A stretch of 64,000 nucleotides of DNA, taken from NCBI RefSeq assembly GCF_041647995.1, contig NZ_JARRIB010000005.1, positions 1 through 64,000 of the forward strand, in the 5' to 3' direction. The position numbers and the translations under genes are program-made. The notes beneath the pieces are model-generated. The model had not been told where the DNA came from and searched no databases. It saw nothing but the letters and a program-made list of their open reading frames with translations. Positions 26,062 through 33,372 of this stretch are shown here, one piece after another (position 1 is the first letter of the stretch; each line of letters begins with the position of its first letter). The DNA is from Pyrococcus kukulkanii (lineage in GTDB: Archaea > Methanobacteriota_B > Thermococci > Thermococcales > Thermococcaceae).

Positions 26062-26122
26062 GTTCACGATTCGTGAACAATTCGTTCACAAAATGTGAAA
26101 GAAAAGTTCATAAATTGTGAAC
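26062..26122. promoter_or_regulatory. Three 17-bp operators at exact 22-bp spacing
   Basis: GTTCACGATTCGTGAAC (26062-26078), GTTCACAAAATGTGAAA (26084-26100) and GTTCATAAATTGTGAAC (26106-26122). Each is a perfect or near-perfect palindrome; the starts are 22 bp apart, two helical turns. The third covers the TATA position expected for the HTH-MNT gene starting at 26137; the first lies just upstream of the nikR TATA. Cooperative binding by the HTH-MNT protein (autoregulation) is the simplest reading; NikR is the alternative. Confidence 0.75.
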
Positions 26123-26136
26123 GAAATTCACCCAAT

Positions 26137-26676
26137 ATGTACAAGCTAATTTCAACAAAGGAGCGAGTTGAAATCTTGAGGTACATTCTCGAACGAGATA
26201 CCATTAGGGTAGAGGAAACGGCAAAAAAGCTCGGAGTTAGTAAAGGTCTTGTATCAAAGCTTCTCCATATGTTAGAAAAGGAAGGTATTGTAAAAAAAGA
26301 GGGGAGGTATTTCAAAGTAATCCTGAACCCAAAAACAAGGGAACTCAAGAGATTTCTAAACTTCTTAACCCTATACCCAAAACTTTCGCAACTAAGAGAA
26401 GAGTGGATAGAGGGTTTAGGCATATACGGAAGTTTCTCAAGGGGAGAGAATAAAGAAGGTAGTGATGTAGATATCTGGATATACACCCAAGGAGAAGATA
26501 TGATAAGGGTAGCAAAGTTCCAAAGGAAGCTCAGGGACACTTTAAAAAGGGAGGTTGATTTGCTTGTCCTTACGCCGAAAAAAATCGAAAGACTAAAAAA
26601 AGAAGATCCAATTTTTTACTATAGCTTGATCTATGGGTCGATAATAATATGGGGGGAAAACCTTGGACAACTTTAA
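26137..26676 (+). CDS. Winged-helix plus minimal nucleotidyltransferase (MNT) antitoxin
   Basis: 179 residues. ATG at 26137 is chosen because the earlier in-frame GTG (26095) lies inside the operators. Residues about 1-75 form a winged helix (EETAKKLGVSKGLVSKLLHM). Residues about 85-179 form an MNT domain with GIYGSFSRGENKEGSDVDIW, the GS-x9-DxD signature, and a third acid in KREVDLLVLT. MNT proteins neutralise HEPN RNases by AMPylation; the fused HTH would add DNA-level autoregulation. No Shine-Dalgarno is visible, so it is probably leaderless. It overlaps the HEPN gene by 14 bp. Confidence 0.82.
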   Translation: MYKLISTKERVEILRYILERDTIRVEETAKKLGVSKGLVSKLLHMLEKEGIVKKEGRYFKVILNPKTRELKRFLNFLTLYPKLSQLREEWIEGLGIYGSFSRGENKEGSDVDIWIYTQGEDMIRVAKFQRKLRDTLKREVDLLVLTPKKIERLKKEDPIFYYSLIYGSIIIWGENLGQL

Positions 26677-27132
26677 AGTTTGTGTAGAGAAAGGACTTCT
26701 GAGAAGAGTTCCTCCTTCAACTGAAAAAGCTTTTCTCAGTCTAAAAAGGGCCGGAGAGTGGCTTGTGGAAGCTGAAATGAATTTAAAATTGGTTCATACA
26801 GAACTTCATTAATTGCGTCATACCTTGCCATGTTTCATTCTGCGAGGGCTTTACTTTTCAAAGATGGGTGGAGAGAAAAGAGCCACTTCTGTGTGGCCAG
26901 GTTCCTTGAGGAATTCTATGTGAAAACGGGAAAACTAGAACAAGAATGGGTAGACTTGCTTGACAGAATGAGAGAAATTAGACATGCCGACCAGTACGAC
27001 GTCAGCTACTCGCCTACAAAAGATGAAGCTGAGGATGCATTAAGGTTAGCTAAACAATTCGTGGAGAAAATTGGGAAGTTGGTGCGGGGGCGGGGATTTG
27101 AACCCCGGAACCCCTACGGGAGGGGATCTTGA
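26663..27132 (+). pseudogene. HEPN toxin partner, frameshifted and running into tRNA-Leu
   Basis: A TTG at 26663 opens DNFKVCVEKGLLRRVPPSTE and reaches EAEMNLKL. A one-base loss near 26795 (GG where GGG would keep frame) stops it. The next frame continues SYRTSLIASYLAMFHSARAL and LFKDGWREKSHFCVARFLEE, with RMREIRHADQYDVSYSP carrying the R-x(4-6)-H HEPN active-site motif, to FVEKIGKLV, and then translates antisense tRNA-Leu until 27132. If the lesion is real the toxin is dead and the MNT gene is an orphan. Confidence 0.7.
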
Positions 27133-27434: not shown

Positions 27435-27893
27435 ATGATACCTCCAATATTTTTCACCCAAGCCCAACCTTCTAAGACCATTCTAGGAAATGATAGAAGA
27501 ATGTGGGTTGTTGAATGTTTAAGAAAAAATCATGGAAAGGCCGAGATTGGAGAGATAGTTGATTACATAGCCAACTTGGAAGGAAATAACACAAGGAGGC
27601 ACAGGAAGAGTATTTACGTAAGCCTGGTTCAGACCCACCTTCCCAGGATGGAAAGGGAAGGGATAGTCAAGGTTAATAGGGGCACCGTTGAGCTACTAGA
27701 TGTACCCCAGGAAGTTGATAGGTACATGAAGATCAAGAAAACCTCAATCACCTGGCCCCTTCTTTATGTAACCTTCTCGGGGGTTGCCCTGATAGCTTCC
27801 CTACTTAGGAATAGTAGCGAGGGAGTCATAATATCCCTCCTCCTTCTTGGAGTGGCAATTTTCCACTGGATTAAAGCTTCTGAACAATGGTAA
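27435..27893 (+). CDS. Membrane-anchored winged-helix regulator
   Basis: 152 residues. Residues about 15-100 form a winged helix (WVVECLRKNHGKAEIGEIVD, RKSIYVSLVQTHLPRMEREG, IVKVNRGTVELLDVP), resembling the DUF7344-type domain. The C-terminus has two hydrophobic segments (WPLLYVTFSGVALIASLL and GVIISLLLLGVAIFHWI), so it is probably membrane-bound with the DNA-binding domain inside the cell. ATG follows GGTGAGA. It stands immediately upstream of the fibre-like operon in the same direction and is the obvious candidate regulator, which is inference. Confidence 0.75.
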   Translation: MIPPIFFTQAQPSKTILGNDRRMWVVECLRKNHGKAEIGEIVDYIANLEGNNTRRHRKSIYVSLVQTHLPRMEREGIVKVNRGTVELLDVPQEVDRYMKIKKTSITWPLLYVTFSGVALIASLLRNSSEGVIISLLLLGVAIFHWIKASEQW

Positions 27894-27906
27894 TTACCCA
27901 TTACCA
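27888..27906. promoter_or_regulatory. Inverted repeat upstream of the fibre operon promoter
   Basis: TGGTAAT-TACCC-ATTACCA, perfect 7-bp arms, overlapping the stop codon of the membrane winged-helix gene and about 15-20 bp upstream of a TATA-like CTATATAC (27925-27935). Position upstream of TATA/BRE suits an activator site, but it may also serve as a weak terminator. Confidence 0.5.
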
Positions 27907-27955
27907 ACATCTTAATTCGGAACTACCTATATACTAGGTCGTCAAAATCCATGAT

Positions 27956-27976
27956 TGGGTCTCACCATGAGACCCA
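27956..27976. other. 5' leader stem-loop of the fibre operon
   Basis: TGGGTCTCA, loop CCA, TGAGACCCA: a perfect 9-bp stem with a 3-base loop placed at about the expected 5' end of the transcript (TATA near 27925-27935), ending a few bases before the first start codon. It could stabilise an abundant mRNA or control translation start. Confidence 0.6.
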
Positions 27977-27982
27977 GAACGA

Positions 27983-28597
27983 GTGGAGATGGAGAAAGTG
28001 AATAAATTTGGACTAGCCATATTTGGTCTAGTGGCCATATTTGGCCTCGTTCTTGGGGCCGGGGCCAGTTTTAGGGACTACAACGCAAGCAGAAGCGTCC
28101 ATTGGGACGTAGTAACTGATGACACCGAGCTAATTGACCTAACACCAATCCAGCCGTACTCGTACATCAACGAAACCACTGGAAAGTTAGTAATTGACTT
28201 CTCAGCGAACAATCCCAACTACCCAGGGTACGGAGACGGAATTAGCCCAAGTGCAGAGTACAACTTCGACGAGGTTTTCGGAGTCAGCAACCACCTTTGG
28301 GAGGACGTGGATATTGTCGTGGAAATTAAGTCCACCAACAGCAACATAGAGCTGTACGGAGCAGATGGGGGCGTTTATTCAGTGGATGATGGCAACCCTG
28401 CGACAGCCAGCGACTCAGCTAGGGACTGGATTTGCTTTGTCGTTCCTCACAACAACATGGTAAAGATAGGAATTGACCTTTCAGCCGATGGAGACAGCCC
28501 CGGAGACTTTTGGACCGGAAATATAGTTATTAAGGCATACAGGCTTGGCACTGAGCCTGCTTACTTAGCGGGCAAGTGCGGGCAGCCGGTGCCATGA
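27983..28597 (+). CDS. DUF1102-type secreted protein, candidate fibre subunit 1
   Basis: 204 residues (GTG start, or ATG 6 bp later). A signal peptide (FGLAIFGLVAIFGLVLGAGA) is followed by SFRDYNASRSVHWDVVTDD, then TELIDLTPIQPYSYINETTG and a beta-rich domain (FSANNPNYPGYGDGISPSAE) with two Cys. The family (DUF1102) is archaeal with no proven function that I know of. The signal peptide followed by a short conserved strand motif and the adjacent dedicated signal peptidase match TasA/camelysin-like fibre subunits. Highly similar in plan to the next gene. Confidence 0.78.
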   Translation: MEMEKVNKFGLAIFGLVAIFGLVLGAGASFRDYNASRSVHWDVVTDDTELIDLTPIQPYSYINETTGKLVIDFSANNPNYPGYGDGISPSAEYNFDEVFGVSNHLWEDVDIVVEIKSTNSNIELYGADGGVYSVDDGNPATASDSARDWICFVVPHNNMVKIGIDLSADGDSPGDFWTGNIVIKAYRLGTEPAYLAGKCGQPVP

Positions 28598-28611
28598 AGG
28601 AGGTATGAAAA

Positions 28612-29142
28612 ATGAATAAGTTATTTGGGTTTGCCCTGTTCTTCGCAGGGCTAATGTTAGCGGTTGGCGCTGGAGCCAACTTCAGGTACTTTGAAGCAAG
28701 TAGGGATGCTACAGTAGCCATAGTGTCGGATGACACCGAGCTTATTGACTTAACACCACTGCAACCCTATGTCTACCTGAACAACGGAAAGCTAACTGTG
28801 GAAATTTCGTCAAACCATCCTGACTACCCAGGGTACGGAGCAGGCCTTAGCACGGACAGTATCTACGTGTTTGAGGAAATGTTTGAAGTTAGCAACGAAC
28901 TGTGGGAAAATGAAAACGAAGACTACCCAATTTGTGTAACTCTAAAGGCCGACAATGGAGTTAAGTTGTTTGCGGGCTCATATGACAACCCAACAGCAGG
29001 ACCGGCAGGAACTATCAGGGTTACAGTGTACCACGGAGACCCAGTAAAGATAGGAATGATCTTCAACACAACGGGACAGGGACTTGGAGGTCACCAAGTG
29101 CAAATTGACGTGACCGCGGTAGCGGGTGAATGCACTCAATGA
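28612..29142 (+). CDS. DUF1102-type secreted protein, candidate fibre subunit 2
   Basis: 176 residues. Signal peptide LFGFALFFAGLMLAVGAGA, then NFRYFEASRDATVAIVSDD and TELIDLTPLQPYVYLNNGKL, clearly paralogous to the preceding protein (shared ELIDLTPxQPY, HPDYPGYGAGLS and VSNELWEN blocks). The ATG follows a strong GGAGGTATGAAAA site, better than its neighbour's, consistent with high expression. An intrinsic-terminator-like hairpin directly follows the stop. Beta-rich, extracellular, probably polymerising by inference from the operon. Confidence 0.8.
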   Translation: MNKLFGFALFFAGLMLAVGAGANFRYFEASRDATVAIVSDDTELIDLTPLQPYVYLNNGKLTVEISSNHPDYPGYGAGLSTDSIYVFEEMFEVSNELWENENEDYPICVTLKADNGVKLFAGSYDNPTAGPAGTIRVTVYHGDPVKIGMIFNTTGQGLGGHQVQIDVTAVAGECTQ

Positions 29143-29166
29143 AGGGACTTCCGTCCCTTCTTTTTA
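29142..29166 (+). terminator. Hairpin with T-run after the fibre subunits
   Basis: AAGGGAC, loop TTCC, GTCCCTT, followed by CTTTTT. It overlaps the stop codon of subunit 2 and lies 20 bp before the signal peptidase start. A partial terminator here would give excess subunit mRNA over the processing and assembly genes. Confidence 0.7.
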
Positions 29167-29185
29167 AATCTTGGTGGTTTAAGCT

Positions 29186-30166
29186 ATGAGGGCCTCCGAA
29201 ATTTTATTCTCAATTGTCATCCTTACCCTAATAATTCCCTCAATAGTTGGCTTCTTCTTGGGGAGGCCCGTGTTCGTTTCGTACGTTTATTCCGATAGCA
29301 TGTACCCCACCCTTAAGAGGTGGGATGTCTTCTTCATAAACCCCCTATCCAAGGGGGACGTCGGTGATATAATAGTCTTCAACCTTTCGGGCAAGTGGAC
29401 GGTTCACAGGGTGTACGCGATAACCGAAGAGGGTTACATAACCAAGGGAGATAACAACGTTGCCACGGATCAGCAAGACGGCAAAAACCCGCCAGTTCCG
29501 AGGGATCAAGTTATTGGGAAGGTGATAACTGTAGGAGGAAAACCGGTAAAGATTCCGGGGCTTGGAAAGCACGTAAACTCGCCACTTGGAATGGCCCTCC
29601 TTGGTGCTGCGGGTTTGCTTTCAATACTCTCAGACTCCTCCGAGGTTAAGAGGAGGAGGAAGAGGGTTATAATCACGACGGAACAGTTGTACGTTGGACT
29701 TGTGGGCTTATTGGCTATGGCCATAATCTTCGTCGGCTCGATGAGCTGGGGAGGAATTGACGTAACCTATGCCTCCACGTTGGCTGGAGGCCAAAGAGAG
29801 GGCTGGTATCTCCCAGGGAGCGTGGTAGAGAAGAACGTTACCGTGAGTAACCCCACGTACATTCCAATGCTCATAATAGCTGAAGGGAAGGTTCTGAAGA
29901 GAACAACGTTCATTTTGGGCGGGCACGAAGAAGTCTCGGTTCCAATCAGGATAGAGGTTCCCGAGGAAACAAGGATATACACGGAGAGGATAAACATATA
30001 CTCCTACTATCCCATACTTCCCCCCTCGATAGTGGAGGGACTTTACTCCATAGACCCGCACCTGCCACTCATCGTTGAGGGGTTGATAGTGTTCTTCGGC
30101 ATGCTCGCGATAAAACCACTCCTCGGGGAGCCCGAGGTAATAATGGTTAGGAGATCTAAGAGATGA
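29186..30166 (+). CDS. Large SipW-like signal peptidase with extra C-terminal domain
   Basis: 326 residues, twice the size of the general enzyme at 16655. N-terminal membrane helix (ILFSIVILTLIIPSIVGFFL), then SYVYSDSMYPTLKRWDVFF with catalytic Ser in SDSMYP (about 36), KWTVHRVYAI with His (archaeal/SipW type) and ITKGDNNVATDQQDG with Asp. Residues about 125-326 are additional: a hydrophobic segment, a basic KRRRKRVIITTEQLY linker, a second span (VGLVGLLAMAIIFVGSM), an extracellular beta-rich domain of about 100 residues, and a final span before RRSKR. The extra domain may recognise or hold the fibre subunits. It overlaps the next gene as ATGA. Confidence 0.85.
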   Translation: MRASEILFSIVILTLIIPSIVGFFLGRPVFVSYVYSDSMYPTLKRWDVFFINPLSKGDVGDIIVFNLSGKWTVHRVYAITEEGYITKGDNNVATDQQDGKNPPVPRDQVIGKVITVGGKPVKIPGLGKHVNSPLGMALLGAAGLLSILSDSSEVKRRRKRVIITTEQLYVGLVGLLAMAIIFVGSMSWGGIDVTYASTLAGGQREGWYLPGSVVEKNVTVSNPTYIPMLIIAEGKVLKRTTFILGGHEEVSVPIRIEVPEETRIYTERINIYSYYPILPPSIVEGLYSIDPHLPLIVEGLIVFFGMLAIKPLLGEPEVIMVRRSKR

Positions 30167-30540
30167 TTAGGAAGATATTTGGGTTGTTACTCATAGCACT
30201 CGCCGCATTATCTATTTCAGGATCATCATCCACGTTTAGGAGTTACACCGCGGAAAGGGAAGTTCTCGTGAAGATCGGAGAGGATCCGCTGATAGACGTT
30301 GAATGCCTAGAGAATGGGAGTATAATCATAACGAACAACATGAACGTTCCAGTTGACTTCAGGGTCTTCTGCCTTCCCTGCATAATGCCCAGGGATTTCA
30401 CTCTGCTACCGAGGGATGAGAAGATGATTGACGTGTGTTTATTTTACTATATCAAGGCAAAGTGGGACGGAGGAGGAGCGAAGATAAAAGGATGCTGCAT
30501 TCCTCACTGCCACCATCATAGAAGGGGTTGTAAAGGATGA
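30163..30540 (+). CDS. Small secreted protein with Cys/His-rich tail
   Basis: 125 residues. A signal peptide (IFGLLLIALAALSISGSSS) is followed by TFRSYTAEREVLVKIGEDP, which repeats the FRxYxAxRxV motif of the two DUF1102 proteins, so it is likely a third substrate of the adjacent signal peptidase. The mature part has VFCLPCIMPRDF and ends GCCIPHCHHHRRGCKG, nine Cys in total and a HxHHH cluster, suggesting disulfides or metal binding. Overlaps both neighbours as ATGA. It could be an anchor, tip or nucleator by analogy with TapA, which is inference. Confidence 0.75.
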   Translation: MIRKIFGLLLIALAALSISGSSSTFRSYTAEREVLVKIGEDPLIDVECLENGSIIITNNMNVPVDFRVFCLPCIMPRDFTLLPRDEKMIDVCLFYYIKAKWDGGGAKIKGCCIPHCHHHRRGCKG

Positions 30541-31463
30541 TTAGGAAAGAGTACTTGATAGGAGGCATATTCGTAGCATTCCTCCTGATGAGCTTCGCAT
30601 CCTACCTGATGAAGGAGGGATACGAGAAAACAACTTTAATCGAACAGGTGGTTCAAAGGGGGGAGCTCAAGCACTCAGGGTACTTAGCCAACGACACGGT
30701 GTACGGAAGGGTTGCGAGCCTTGAGTACTACCCAACGAAGATACTCGAGGCAATACATGGGAACTACACATATTCGATAGAGCCAAGCGAAAGCGGTTCC
30801 TATTACCTCGTGGGCACCGCCTCGTACTACGTAACCAAGGGGAAGGACAGGATATACCTCGTGAACGAGACGCTGTTCTCGACCAAGGGGAAGTTGCTTA
30901 ACGGAACCTTCAGCCAAGGTTTCAGCATAAATTTGACGGAAGTTGGAGAGAGAAGGAGAGAACTCGCCGAGGCACTACAGCTTCCAAGGATACTGTACGA
31001 GGTCAAGGTTACTGCTAAGGTCAGGACGAAGGAGGGAGAGTTCGTCCAAGAGATGCCGATAGTCGAGGACACTAGCGGACTGACGTACATCAAGAACACG
31101 GAGCTTGAGAAGAAGAGGAACATAGTAGAGACGAGTACCGTGAACAATAAGCTGCTTGGCATGAACGTTTCGACCGCGAGGGTTGTGTTCCCCATATTGG
31201 CACTAGTTTCGGGGATAGCCCTCCTTGTGCTGTGGAGGCCTAAGCCGAAGAGGAAGATAAATGCAATAGAGGGCATGCCAAAAGGAATAAGCTCAAGGGT
31301 TCTCGTCAACGACGAGAAGAGCCTTAAGAAAATAGCGAAGATAATTGGAAGCCCAATTATTCACTACACACTTGACGGGGTCGACGTTTACGGGGTGATA
31401 GATGGGAGCGTTATATACGAGTGGTGGAGCCTCAAGAGCGCTGAGCCTGAATCCAGGCAATGA
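30537..31463 (+). CDS. DUF5305-type membrane protein with two terminal spans
   Basis: 308 residues. An N-terminal membrane helix (LIGGIFVAFLLMSFASYLM), an extracellular beta-rich domain of about 190 residues (SYYLVGTASYYVTKGKDRIY, GTFSQGFSINLTEVGERRRE), then a second span (RVVFPILALVSGIALLVLW) and a cytoplasmic tail of about 75 residues with LVNDEKSLKKIAKIIGSPII and VDVYGVIDGSVIYEWW. The plan matches DUF5305. It is the last gene of the fibre-like operon and overlaps the convergent 31432-33372 gene by 32 bp. A membrane assembly or anchoring role is possible. Confidence 0.75.
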   Translation: MIRKEYLIGGIFVAFLLMSFASYLMKEGYEKTTLIEQVVQRGELKHSGYLANDTVYGRVASLEYYPTKILEAIHGNYTYSIEPSESGSYYLVGTASYYVTKGKDRIYLVNETLFSTKGKLLNGTFSQGFSINLTEVGERRRELAEALQLPRILYEVKVTAKVRTKEGEFVQEMPIVEDTSGLTYIKNTELEKKRNIVETSTVNNKLLGMNVSTARVVFPILALVSGIALLVLWRPKPKRKINAIEGMPKGISSRVLVNDEKSLKKIAKIIGSPIIHYTLDGVDVYGVIDGSVIYEWWSLKSAEPESRQ

Positions 31464-33372
31464 GGATTATGATCCCCGCCCCTATCGCTATTCCTATTAT
31501 TAGGGTCAGCCAGCTCCACTTTGTTACCACCTCCTTAACCGTTGTCGTTGCGGTGAAGGTTACTGGAATCTGCTTCGTCGTGATTATCGTCTGAGTCACG
31601 GTCTTCGTGATGTTGCCAACGCTCATCGTTATTGTCTTAGTAACCTCATTTGTCACCGTTTCCGTGCTTGTAACTACGGAAACCCCACCGCTTGACTTAA
31701 GAACCCTGATTTTAAGCTTGACTTCATCTATCGGCCTGCCGAATGCCTCAAGCTTTCCGACTAGCGTGTAGTTACCTGGGGTAACGGCCACGAGCTTTAG
31801 TGTGGAGTTCCCTTTAACTACCGGAACCTTGACTTCCCCTCCCAAGACCTCCCCCTGCGATATTAAGCCAACGCCATCGGGAAGCTCCAAGGTTAAGTTC
31901 CCCAGGAAGCCCGCTGGGGCCTCCAGTGACACGTTTACTTCGAAAGGAACTCCAGCAGGAACTTCCCTTGGGGAAGTCACGACGAAGTTGACGTTTACGG
32001 GACTAACGCTGACGAGGGGCTCGTTTGAGGAGAAGCTAATCACCTTAAGGCCACCGCAGGCCAAAGGATAGGGGATTGGGGCTACAACATCTGCTTTACC
32101 TAGGGAAATCGTTCCGTTCCTTAACGCAACGACCTTGAATTTAAGCGTCTTTTCCTTTCCTGGTTCCAGCTTGTCTATGTAAACCTCGTCACCACCAAGA
32201 ACCTTAAAGTCCTTCCCTGGGGAAAACGTTAGGAGGGCATTATAAACTGGACTTGTCCCCACGTTCTTAATTATTACATTGACAACCCCAGGAACGAGTG
32301 CGGTAAAGTTCTCCTGGGGAATGATGGTTACGTTTAGCAGGGCAAGGTACCTCGGCTTCTCCCTTGGGTTGTAGAAGGTTATGAAGGTGGCCTTCTTACC
32401 GCTTGAATCCTCGCTCGTGTTCAAAAGGCCTACACTTATCCCATCGTACGTTACCGGGCTTATCCACTGGGAGCTCGCCCTGACTACTCCGTCCTTAAGC
32501 TCGTCGTGGCAGGAATTGAGGATGGAGATGTACGCTACGCCATCGGCTATGCCGTTCACCCTAACTATGTAGGGACCAAGGGCGTAATCTTTGCCTTCAT
32601 AAACCGTGAATTCCCTCGATGGGTCATAGGAAACGTTGATCTGAAGGGCCCTCAGGTAGACCTCGATGGATATCCTCGGATCGCACATGTTGTTGACCAT
32701 GATGCACCTGAAGCCGATGTACTTCACTATGAACTTACCAATTACCTCGCTCTCTCCCTCTTCGATCTTGTACTCCTTCCCACCGTACTCTACGGAGATG
32801 ACGCTCGAGGTCTTATTGTTTACAAGGGTCATGTTTATTCCCTTGATCTCAAGCCTGAGGTTTTCATAGGTTACGTTGTCCCCCACCTTAACCTCTCCCC
32901 TGAACAAGAGGGGCCTCGGGGTTATCGTTATCGAATAATTGGCGAAGTCAAACTTTGAATCCTTAAACGTCTTCTCCTCACCATTGTACGAGGCAAGAAC
33001 CTCAAAAGAGTCCACATCAACATCCTCAACCTTCAAAGTTAAGTTGCCAACCTCAACTTTCTCGCCAACGAAAATTGGGGGAAAGGTCATGTTCACGTAC
33101 AGCATTGGAGGTTCACTAAAGAAGACCCTAAGGACGGTGACGTTGGAGTGGGCAAATTTGTAGAGCCCACCGAGCGGGATGGAGTAGGAGCTTATGGATC
33201 CGTTAAACTCTTCCTGAACGTAAACCTCCCCGCCCATGTCAACGTCCACGAATCCTAAGGTAACGTTCCCAAACTTTACCCCCTCTCCCAGGCTCACCCA
33301 GCCCACGAATGAAGATGCAAGAACCTGGGGAAGGAAAGTTAGCATCAACAGTACCGCAAGCACTTTCCTCAT
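31432..33372 (-). CDS. Large secreted, membrane-anchored beta-repeat protein at the end of the archaellum operon
   Basis: 646 residues. Signal peptide (VLAVLLMLTFLPQVLASSF), several beta domains with many N-x-S/T sequons, two CARDB/NEW3-like repeats (NVTIIPQENFTALVPGVVNV, FVVTSPREVPAGVPFEVNVS), a Thr-rich stalk (about 570-615, with TSTETVTNEVTKTITMSVG) and a C-terminal membrane helix (LTLIIGIAIGAGIIILIAWI). It starts only 6 bp after the arlJ stop on the same strand, so it is probably cotranscribed with the archaellum genes. It may tether or insulate the archaellum in the envelope, or be an S-layer-associated protein unrelated to motility. Confidence 0.82.
   Translation of the reverse strand: MRKVLAVLLMLTFLPQVLASSFVGWVSLGEGVKFGNVTLGFVDVDMGGEVYVQEEFNGSISSYSIPLGGLYKFAHSNVTVLRVFFSEPPMLYVNMTFPPIFVGEKVEVGNLTLKVEDVDVDSFEVLASYNGEEKTFKDSKFDFANYSITITPRPLLFRGEVKVGDNVTYENLRLEIKGINMTLVNNKTSSVISVEYGGKEYKIEEGESEVIGKFIVKYIGFRCIMVNNMCDPRISIEVYLRALQINVSYDPSREFTVYEGKDYALGPYIVRVNGIADGVAYISILNSCHDELKDGVVRASSQWISPVTYDGISVGLLNTSEDSSGKKATFITFYNPREKPRYLALLNVTIIPQENFTALVPGVVNVIIKNVGTSPVYNALLTFSPGKDFKVLGGDEVYIDKLEPGKEKTLKFKVVALRNGTISLGKADVVAPIPYPLACGGLKVISFSSNEPLVSVSPVNVNFVVTSPREVPAGVPFEVNVSLEAPAGFLGNLTLELPDGVGLISQGEVLGGEVKVPVVKGNSTLKLVAVTPGNYTLVGKLEAFGRPIDEVKLKIRVLKSSGGVSVVTSTETVTNEVTKTITMSVGNITKTVTQTIITTKQIPVTFTATTTVKEVVTKWSWLTLIIGIAIGAGIIILIAWIQAQRS

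Follow-up and report, generated by a model that had tools for sequence, protein, structure and literature searches.

Gene content and conservation of the locus

We analyzed a 64,000-nucleotide stretch of the Pyrococcus kukulkanii contig NZ_JARRIB010000005.1 (hereafter, the window), in which six genes at 27435-31463, all read on the + strand, encode a DUF7344 protein, DUF1102a, DUF1102b, a signal peptidase, a Cys/His-rich protein designated X and a DUF5305 protein (Table 1). An earlier note, made from the sequence alone, had described these genes as a surface-fiber operon resembling the Bacillus TasA/SipW system; all six were found in the order and at the positions it gave, as were the hairpin with its T-run after DUF1102b and the ATGA overlaps joining the last three genes, those of the peptidase, X and DUF5305. 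DUF1102a and DUF1102b are 50% identical over their aligned part and score 184.7 and 177.7 bits, respectively, against PF06510 (DUF1102), whose curated cut-off is 22.2 bits; in the DUF1102a gene, an in-frame ATG also stands at 27989. By hydropathy, the DUF5305 protein has spans at about 6-26 and 211-235, together with an exoplasmic domain and a C-terminal cytosolic domain. The operon contains neither a type IV pilus ATPase or platform gene nor class III prepilins and thus does not qualify as a type IV pilus locus, while the neighboring ArlJ is encoded on the opposite strand as part of the archaellum cluster. Since archaellum genes adjoin the operon in the window's own genus only, we regard them as no part of the system.

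Table 1. Genes and sequence elements of the operon in the window
Feature	Position	Strand	Evidence
Membrane-anchored winged-helix regulator, DUF7344	27435..27893	+	Pfam PF24035, E 1.8e-16; two C-terminal membrane spans by hydropathy
Palindromic operator GGTAAT-TACCC-ATTACC	27889..27905		Overlaps regulator stop codon; one site in the 2.05-Mb genome
TATA box CTATATAC	27927..27934	+	21 bp downstream of operator; similar spacing in most relatives
Hairpin in presumed 5' leader of DUF1102a	27955..27977	+	Present in 8/8 loci of the window's genus, sequence varying
DUF1102a, presumed fiber subunit	27983..28597	+	Pfam DUF1102, E 1.2e-54; P2' Phe invariant
DUF1102b, presumed fiber subunit	28612..29142	+	Pfam, E 1.8e-52; AlphaFold2 pLDDT 84; Foldseek rank 1, 7ueg (AbpA)
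Hairpin and T-run after subunit genes, probable attenuating terminator	29141..29165	+	Perfect 8-bp stem GAAGGGAC-TTCC-GTCCCTTC, then T5
Dedicated signal peptidase, 326 aa	29186..30166	+	TIGR02228; Ser38 and His74 invariant; full-length homology to haloarchaeal peptidases
X, secreted Cys/His-rich protein, 125 aa	30163..30540	+	AlphaFold2; Foldseek; N-terminal homology to DUF1102
DUF5305 two-span membrane protein, 308 aa	30537..31463	+	Pfam, E 1.6e-8; same slot in all Thermococcales loci read

DUF1102 is present in 87 of 94 Thermococcales genomes (72 of the 74 good ones), and in the window's own genome it occurs at this locus only. When we compared 40 other Thermococcales loci from six genera, the order helix-turn-helix (HTH) gene, DUF1102-1, DUF1102-2, an optional DUF1102-3, peptidase, X and DUF5305 was kept in all 40, and hence the cluster lies far beyond chance. 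The conservation that the earlier note had proposed to check in Thermococcales thus extends through every locus compared and into Archaeoglobi, where contigs of Archaeoglobus and Geoglobus show the same order, with the HTH gene present or absent. Two Archaeoglobi-type loci (L143, 5959-9110; L144, 7112-10263) hold a second cluster whose four DUF1102 genes include one of 522 aa and in which X is placed before the peptidase, a rearranged second version of the system. In genomes that we call haloarchaeal, an assignment inferred from their placement in the phylum of Archaeoglobi and from sequence, the large peptidase lies in the same region as DUF1102 in 8 of the 12 loci read, and five of these also carry DUF5305 (in one case with a Pfam E of 8e-59).

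Natural losses were also observed. Two good genomes without DUF1102 (G025 and G040) lack the large peptidase as well and keep only the short, housekeeping signal peptidase of about 190 aa, while in G028 stops and frameshifts break the operon throughout. G080 is a natural knockout of both main subunit genes: a deletion removed them, so that the HTH gene now runs into the last part of DUF1102-3 (L149, 7623-8116). The operon is therefore an accessory unit that is mostly lost whole, with G080 as the exception.

Predicted subunit folds, cleavage regions and the dedicated peptidase

DUF1102b was modeled without its signal peptide by AlphaFold2 from an 86-sequence alignment and compared by Foldseek with 350,542 PDB chains. 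The model reached a predicted local distance difference test score (pLDDT) of 84 and a predicted template modeling score of 0.79, with residues 1-8 below pLDDT 50 followed by eleven strands. Its first-ranked match was AbpA (7ueg), the bundling pilin of Pyrobaculum calidifontis (probability 1.00, E 1.1e-3), and next came FimA pilins, several of them self-complemented or reversed. AbpA has been described as structurally related to TasA (PMC9674648). The DUF1102b sequence alone found no match in the PDB; 9p0a came up only with the DUF1102 family profile, at first with an E of 0.035. Haloarchaeal relatives, which are homologous to DUF1102 (hhalign 99.6%, E 6e-24), match 9p0a, an entry with the name 'Pilin', along their entire length (E 8e-29), a sequence match that lends independent support to the pilin reading.

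All three secreted proteins of the window carry a TasA-type cleavage region. The predicted mature starts lie near 28067 in DUF1102a (between GAGA and SF), near 28678 in DUF1102b (between GAGA and NF) and near 30232 in X (between SSS and TF). Phe occupies P2' in 82 of 82 DUF1102-1 and DUF1102-2 precursors, with the cut predicted after GAGA, and in every X with an intact start, with the cut predicted after GSSS (the X of L055 is disrupted at its start); DUF1102-3 has neither this Phe nor the following segment (24 of 24 cases). In TasA, the P2' Phe with its surroundings keeps the common bacterial signal peptidase from cutting, whereas SipW, a Ser/His enzyme, accepts the site (PMC10269814); this residue, Phe29, packs in the donor strand (PMC9674648). 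A local likeness between TasA AFNDIKSKDATFA and DUF1102b NFRYFEASRDATVA (TasA letters checked against PDB 8aur) is suggestive only, since comparison of the whole proteins gives nothing. Haloarchaeal DUF1102 precursors (L130-L141) begin with MxRRxF, which by our own reading resembles a twin-arginine signal; judging from this motif, haloarchaeal subunits may be exported folded.

As in SipW-type operons, a dedicated Ser/His signal peptidase thus stands beside putative substrates with an aromatic P2' residue. The enzyme scores 69.6 bits against NCBIfam TIGR02228 (archaeal signal peptidase I; cut-off 51.85), with only its first 115 residues aligned, and 26.9 bits against the SipW equivalog NF046067, far from the cut-off of 190. 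It is one of two signal peptidases in the genome, the short one scoring 141.8 bits and that of the operon 71.4 bits. The best solved relatives of the large peptidase are SEC11 subunits. Hydropathy indicates a catalytic domain, two spans, an exoplasmic domain of ~100 residues (about aa 192-290) and a last span. This whole build extends to the haloarchaeal enzymes, with an alignment of 352 columns (100%, E 1.4e-47), so the exoplasmic domain is old and has been kept. Neither this domain nor DUF5305 gave a meaningful match among solved structures, and the idea that the two are duplicated relatives was rejected (probability 0.8%).

The slot of X holds the short Cys/His form in the window's genus and a protein of 300-480 aa in most other Thermococcales, in some of which it includes a DUF11 domain; the longer forms may reach outward or bind. 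An AlphaFold2 model of the short form (26 sequences, pLDDT 79.5) consists of a signal helix, a region without regular structure (17-43) and a seven-strand domain (44-111) closest to designed immunoglobulin (Ig) domains in Foldseek, and the N-terminal part of X shows homology to DUF1102 (98.4%, E 5e-15). Bacillus TapA likewise combines a flexible N-terminus resembling the TasA donor strand with a complete Ig fold (PMC9674648, PMC10151520). X shares with it the free donor-like N-terminus, the complete Ig fold and the peptidase site common to the subunits; by this architectural analogy, the role of a TapA-like initiator or cap suits it better than that of a fiber subunit. To see in the DUF5305 protein the anchor of the system would be guesswork. 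A stronger candidate for anchoring the base, in many Thermococcus, is the third DUF1102 protein, in which the donor segment is missing; DUF5305 is presumed to be an assembly or anchoring partner.

The operator and the surroundings of the operon

In 39 of 41 loci, the palindrome departs from the consensus GGTAAY-N5-RTTACC at no more than one position, and in most relatives it lies 20-21 bp, less often 30-31 bp, upstream of the TATA box. By our own count, the 94 genomes contain 68 exact sites, 50 at the operon and 18 elsewhere, the latter number being close to the 21 of a reversed control pattern. Archaeoglobi with a detected DUF7344 gene keep the site (0, 2, 2 and 3 mismatches), and those without the gene show four or more. 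These patterns are good indirect evidence that DUF7344 controls the DUF1102 operon and little else. The palindrome might instead be bound by another factor, since it lies downstream of the regulator gene, not before it, and its contact with DUF7344 is putative; we consider this rather unlikely, given that a recognizable site goes together with DUF7344 in Archaeoglobi. A broad regulon is excluded because the genome contains exactly one exact site, and the motif of EarA, the regulator of the archaellum, is not the same (PMC10665913). That DUF7344 itself is EarA was likewise rejected: in Thermococcus, it stays with the DUF1102 operon away from the arl genes, and the motifs differ. The hairpin after DUF1102b is present in 8 of 8 loci of the window's genus, where its sequence differs and its pairing is kept. 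Terminators between the genes of the arl operon adjust subunit levels in P. furiosus (PMC10665913), and by analogy the hairpins flanking DUF1102a-b likely do the same. A scan for sigma-70 promoters was set aside, as this bacterial consensus is irrelevant for archaea.

Two features were observed beside the operon. Upstream (26095-27132), a nucleotidyltransferase gene with an HTH (NTP_transf_2) precedes a HEPN gene whose reading frame is interrupted near 26805, leaving it in two frames; we read the two genes as a minimal nucleotidyltransferase/HEPN pair, one partner of which is broken. Convergent with the operon, a gene at 31435-33372 on the - strand encodes a 646-aa secreted protein with a Thr-rich stalk and a C-terminal span; it lies between the operon and arlJ throughout the genus, evolves fast (34-83% identity) and matches no family.

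A putative donor-strand fiber and its assembly

We consider it very likely that the operon makes a surface fiber assembled by donor-strand exchange and served by a dedicated peptidase. The conserved gene order, AbpA as the best match of the predicted fold and the TasA-type cleavage regions all argue for the core of the earlier proposal, a surface fiber with its own signal peptidase. In the mechanism that we propose, DUF1102a and DUF1102b would leave the cell through Sec, the dedicated peptidase would cut them immediately ahead of [SN]FRxY/FxASR, and the freed N-terminal segment would complete the beta-sandwich of the next subunit, giving a thin extracellular fiber. X, cut at a similar site, would offer the same segment and start or cap the fiber, as TapA does for TasA; since its own Ig-like domain is complete, it could donate but not accept. 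While the fiber is assembled, freed subunits would probably be kept at the membrane by the exoplasmic domain of the peptidase together with DUF5305. DUF7344 would probably switch the operon by binding the palindrome that precedes the DUF1102a promoter, and the hairpins flanking DUF1102a-b would keep the subunits in excess. Such filaments may bundle and may have a role in biofilms. More tentatively, and with a chance that we put well below even, the signal peptidase could double as an assembly platform whose exoplasmic domain, with DUF5305, holds the cut subunit and passes the strand on; the Thermococcus fiber would then be two-ended, with X as a donor-only end and, as an acceptor-only base, the membrane-held third DUF1102, in which both the donor segment and the cleavage site are missing.

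This arrangement shares much with Bacillus. Both tapA-sipW-tasA of B. subtilis and sipW-tasA/calY/capP of B. cereus place a dedicated Ser/His peptidase beside substrates with Phe at P2', a donor-like N-terminal segment is common to subunit and initiator, as in DUF1102 and X, and B. cereus has two paralogous subunits, as are DUF1102a and DUF1102b. Unlike in Bacillus, however, the gene order is different, the peptidase has an exoplasmic domain and about four spans, and the operon adds DUF5305 as well as DUF7344, a regulator to which a separate operator belongs; the exoplasmic domain, DUF5305 and the one-site regulator are the system's own features. AbpA of bundling pili is likewise a secreted beta-sandwich subunit from an archaeon, although it shows no sequence match with DUF1102. 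The haloarchaeal DUF1102 proteins and 9p0a share with the operon the protein superfamily, the GAF...R cleavage region and the large peptidase, with DUF5305 in several loci. Several of them lack the operon order. Sulfolobus acidocaldarius threads (Saci_0406, PMC9715654) are an archaeal donor-strand fiber processed by signal peptidase I, like the fiber proposed here. The 50 best fold matches of DUF1102b do not include Saci_0406. We know of no dedicated peptidase beside it.

Several observations weigh against a donor-strand fiber. The match of DUF1102b to AbpA is borderline (E 1.1e-3, TM 0.47/0.42, root-mean-square deviation 9.5 A), and TasA is absent from the 50 best Foldseek matches; the fold comparison suggested by the earlier note favors AbpA, with FimA next. 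Hhalign of DUF1102 against TasA gave a probability of 0.2%, i.e., no sequence homology, and no Pfam match to Camelysin was found up to E 1. Hence, the term 'TasA-like' applies only in the sense that the system works like tapA-sipW-tasA and AbpA. Moreover, 9p0a is known here by its name 'Pilin' and its three identical chains only, and our literature search turned up no such filament in Pyrococcus (electron microscopy of a P. furiosus earA deletion showed cells mostly without archaella and was not aimed at thin fibers; PMC10665913). Finally, in G080, the peptidase, X and DUF5305 genes are still open after the loss of DUF1102-1 and DUF1102-2; they may serve another use, or the loss may be recent.

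With modest fold scores, a putative filament and soluble beta-sandwich proteins being common on archaeal surfaces, the DUF1102 proteins might instead be non-polymerizing surface or surface-layer-associated proteins, and the peptidase merely a second signal peptidase. This seems improbable to us given that AbpA and FimA lead the fold matches and that the solved structure of a haloarchaeal relative bears the name 'Pilin', and in view of a TapA-like X, the joint loss of DUF1102 and the peptidase, and a second DUF1102 paralog fixed in all loci. The G080 genes would fit a general maturation device composed of the peptidase, X and DUF5305, with DUF1102 as one client among several; we hold this to be very improbable, as each genome has a single large peptidase, with DUF1102 next to it in nearly every case, it is missing from the two good genomes without DUF1102, and the window's own genome has DUF1102 at this place only.

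A donor-strand fiber would provide a probable function for DUF1102, which no paper found in our literature search names, as well as for DUF5305 and DUF7344. It would also mean a surface fiber separate from archaella and type IV pili in almost every member of the Thermococcales, genetically tractable genera among them. An operator present once in the genome would make DUF7344 a clean one-target archaeal regulator. An unusually built Ser/His signal peptidase would be tied to fiber assembly across three archaeal classes, and therefore donor-strand assembly without chaperone and usher would become directly testable in single-membrane cells. If the peptidase indeed acts as a platform, it would be the usher-free, single-membrane counterpart of chaperone-usher assembly.

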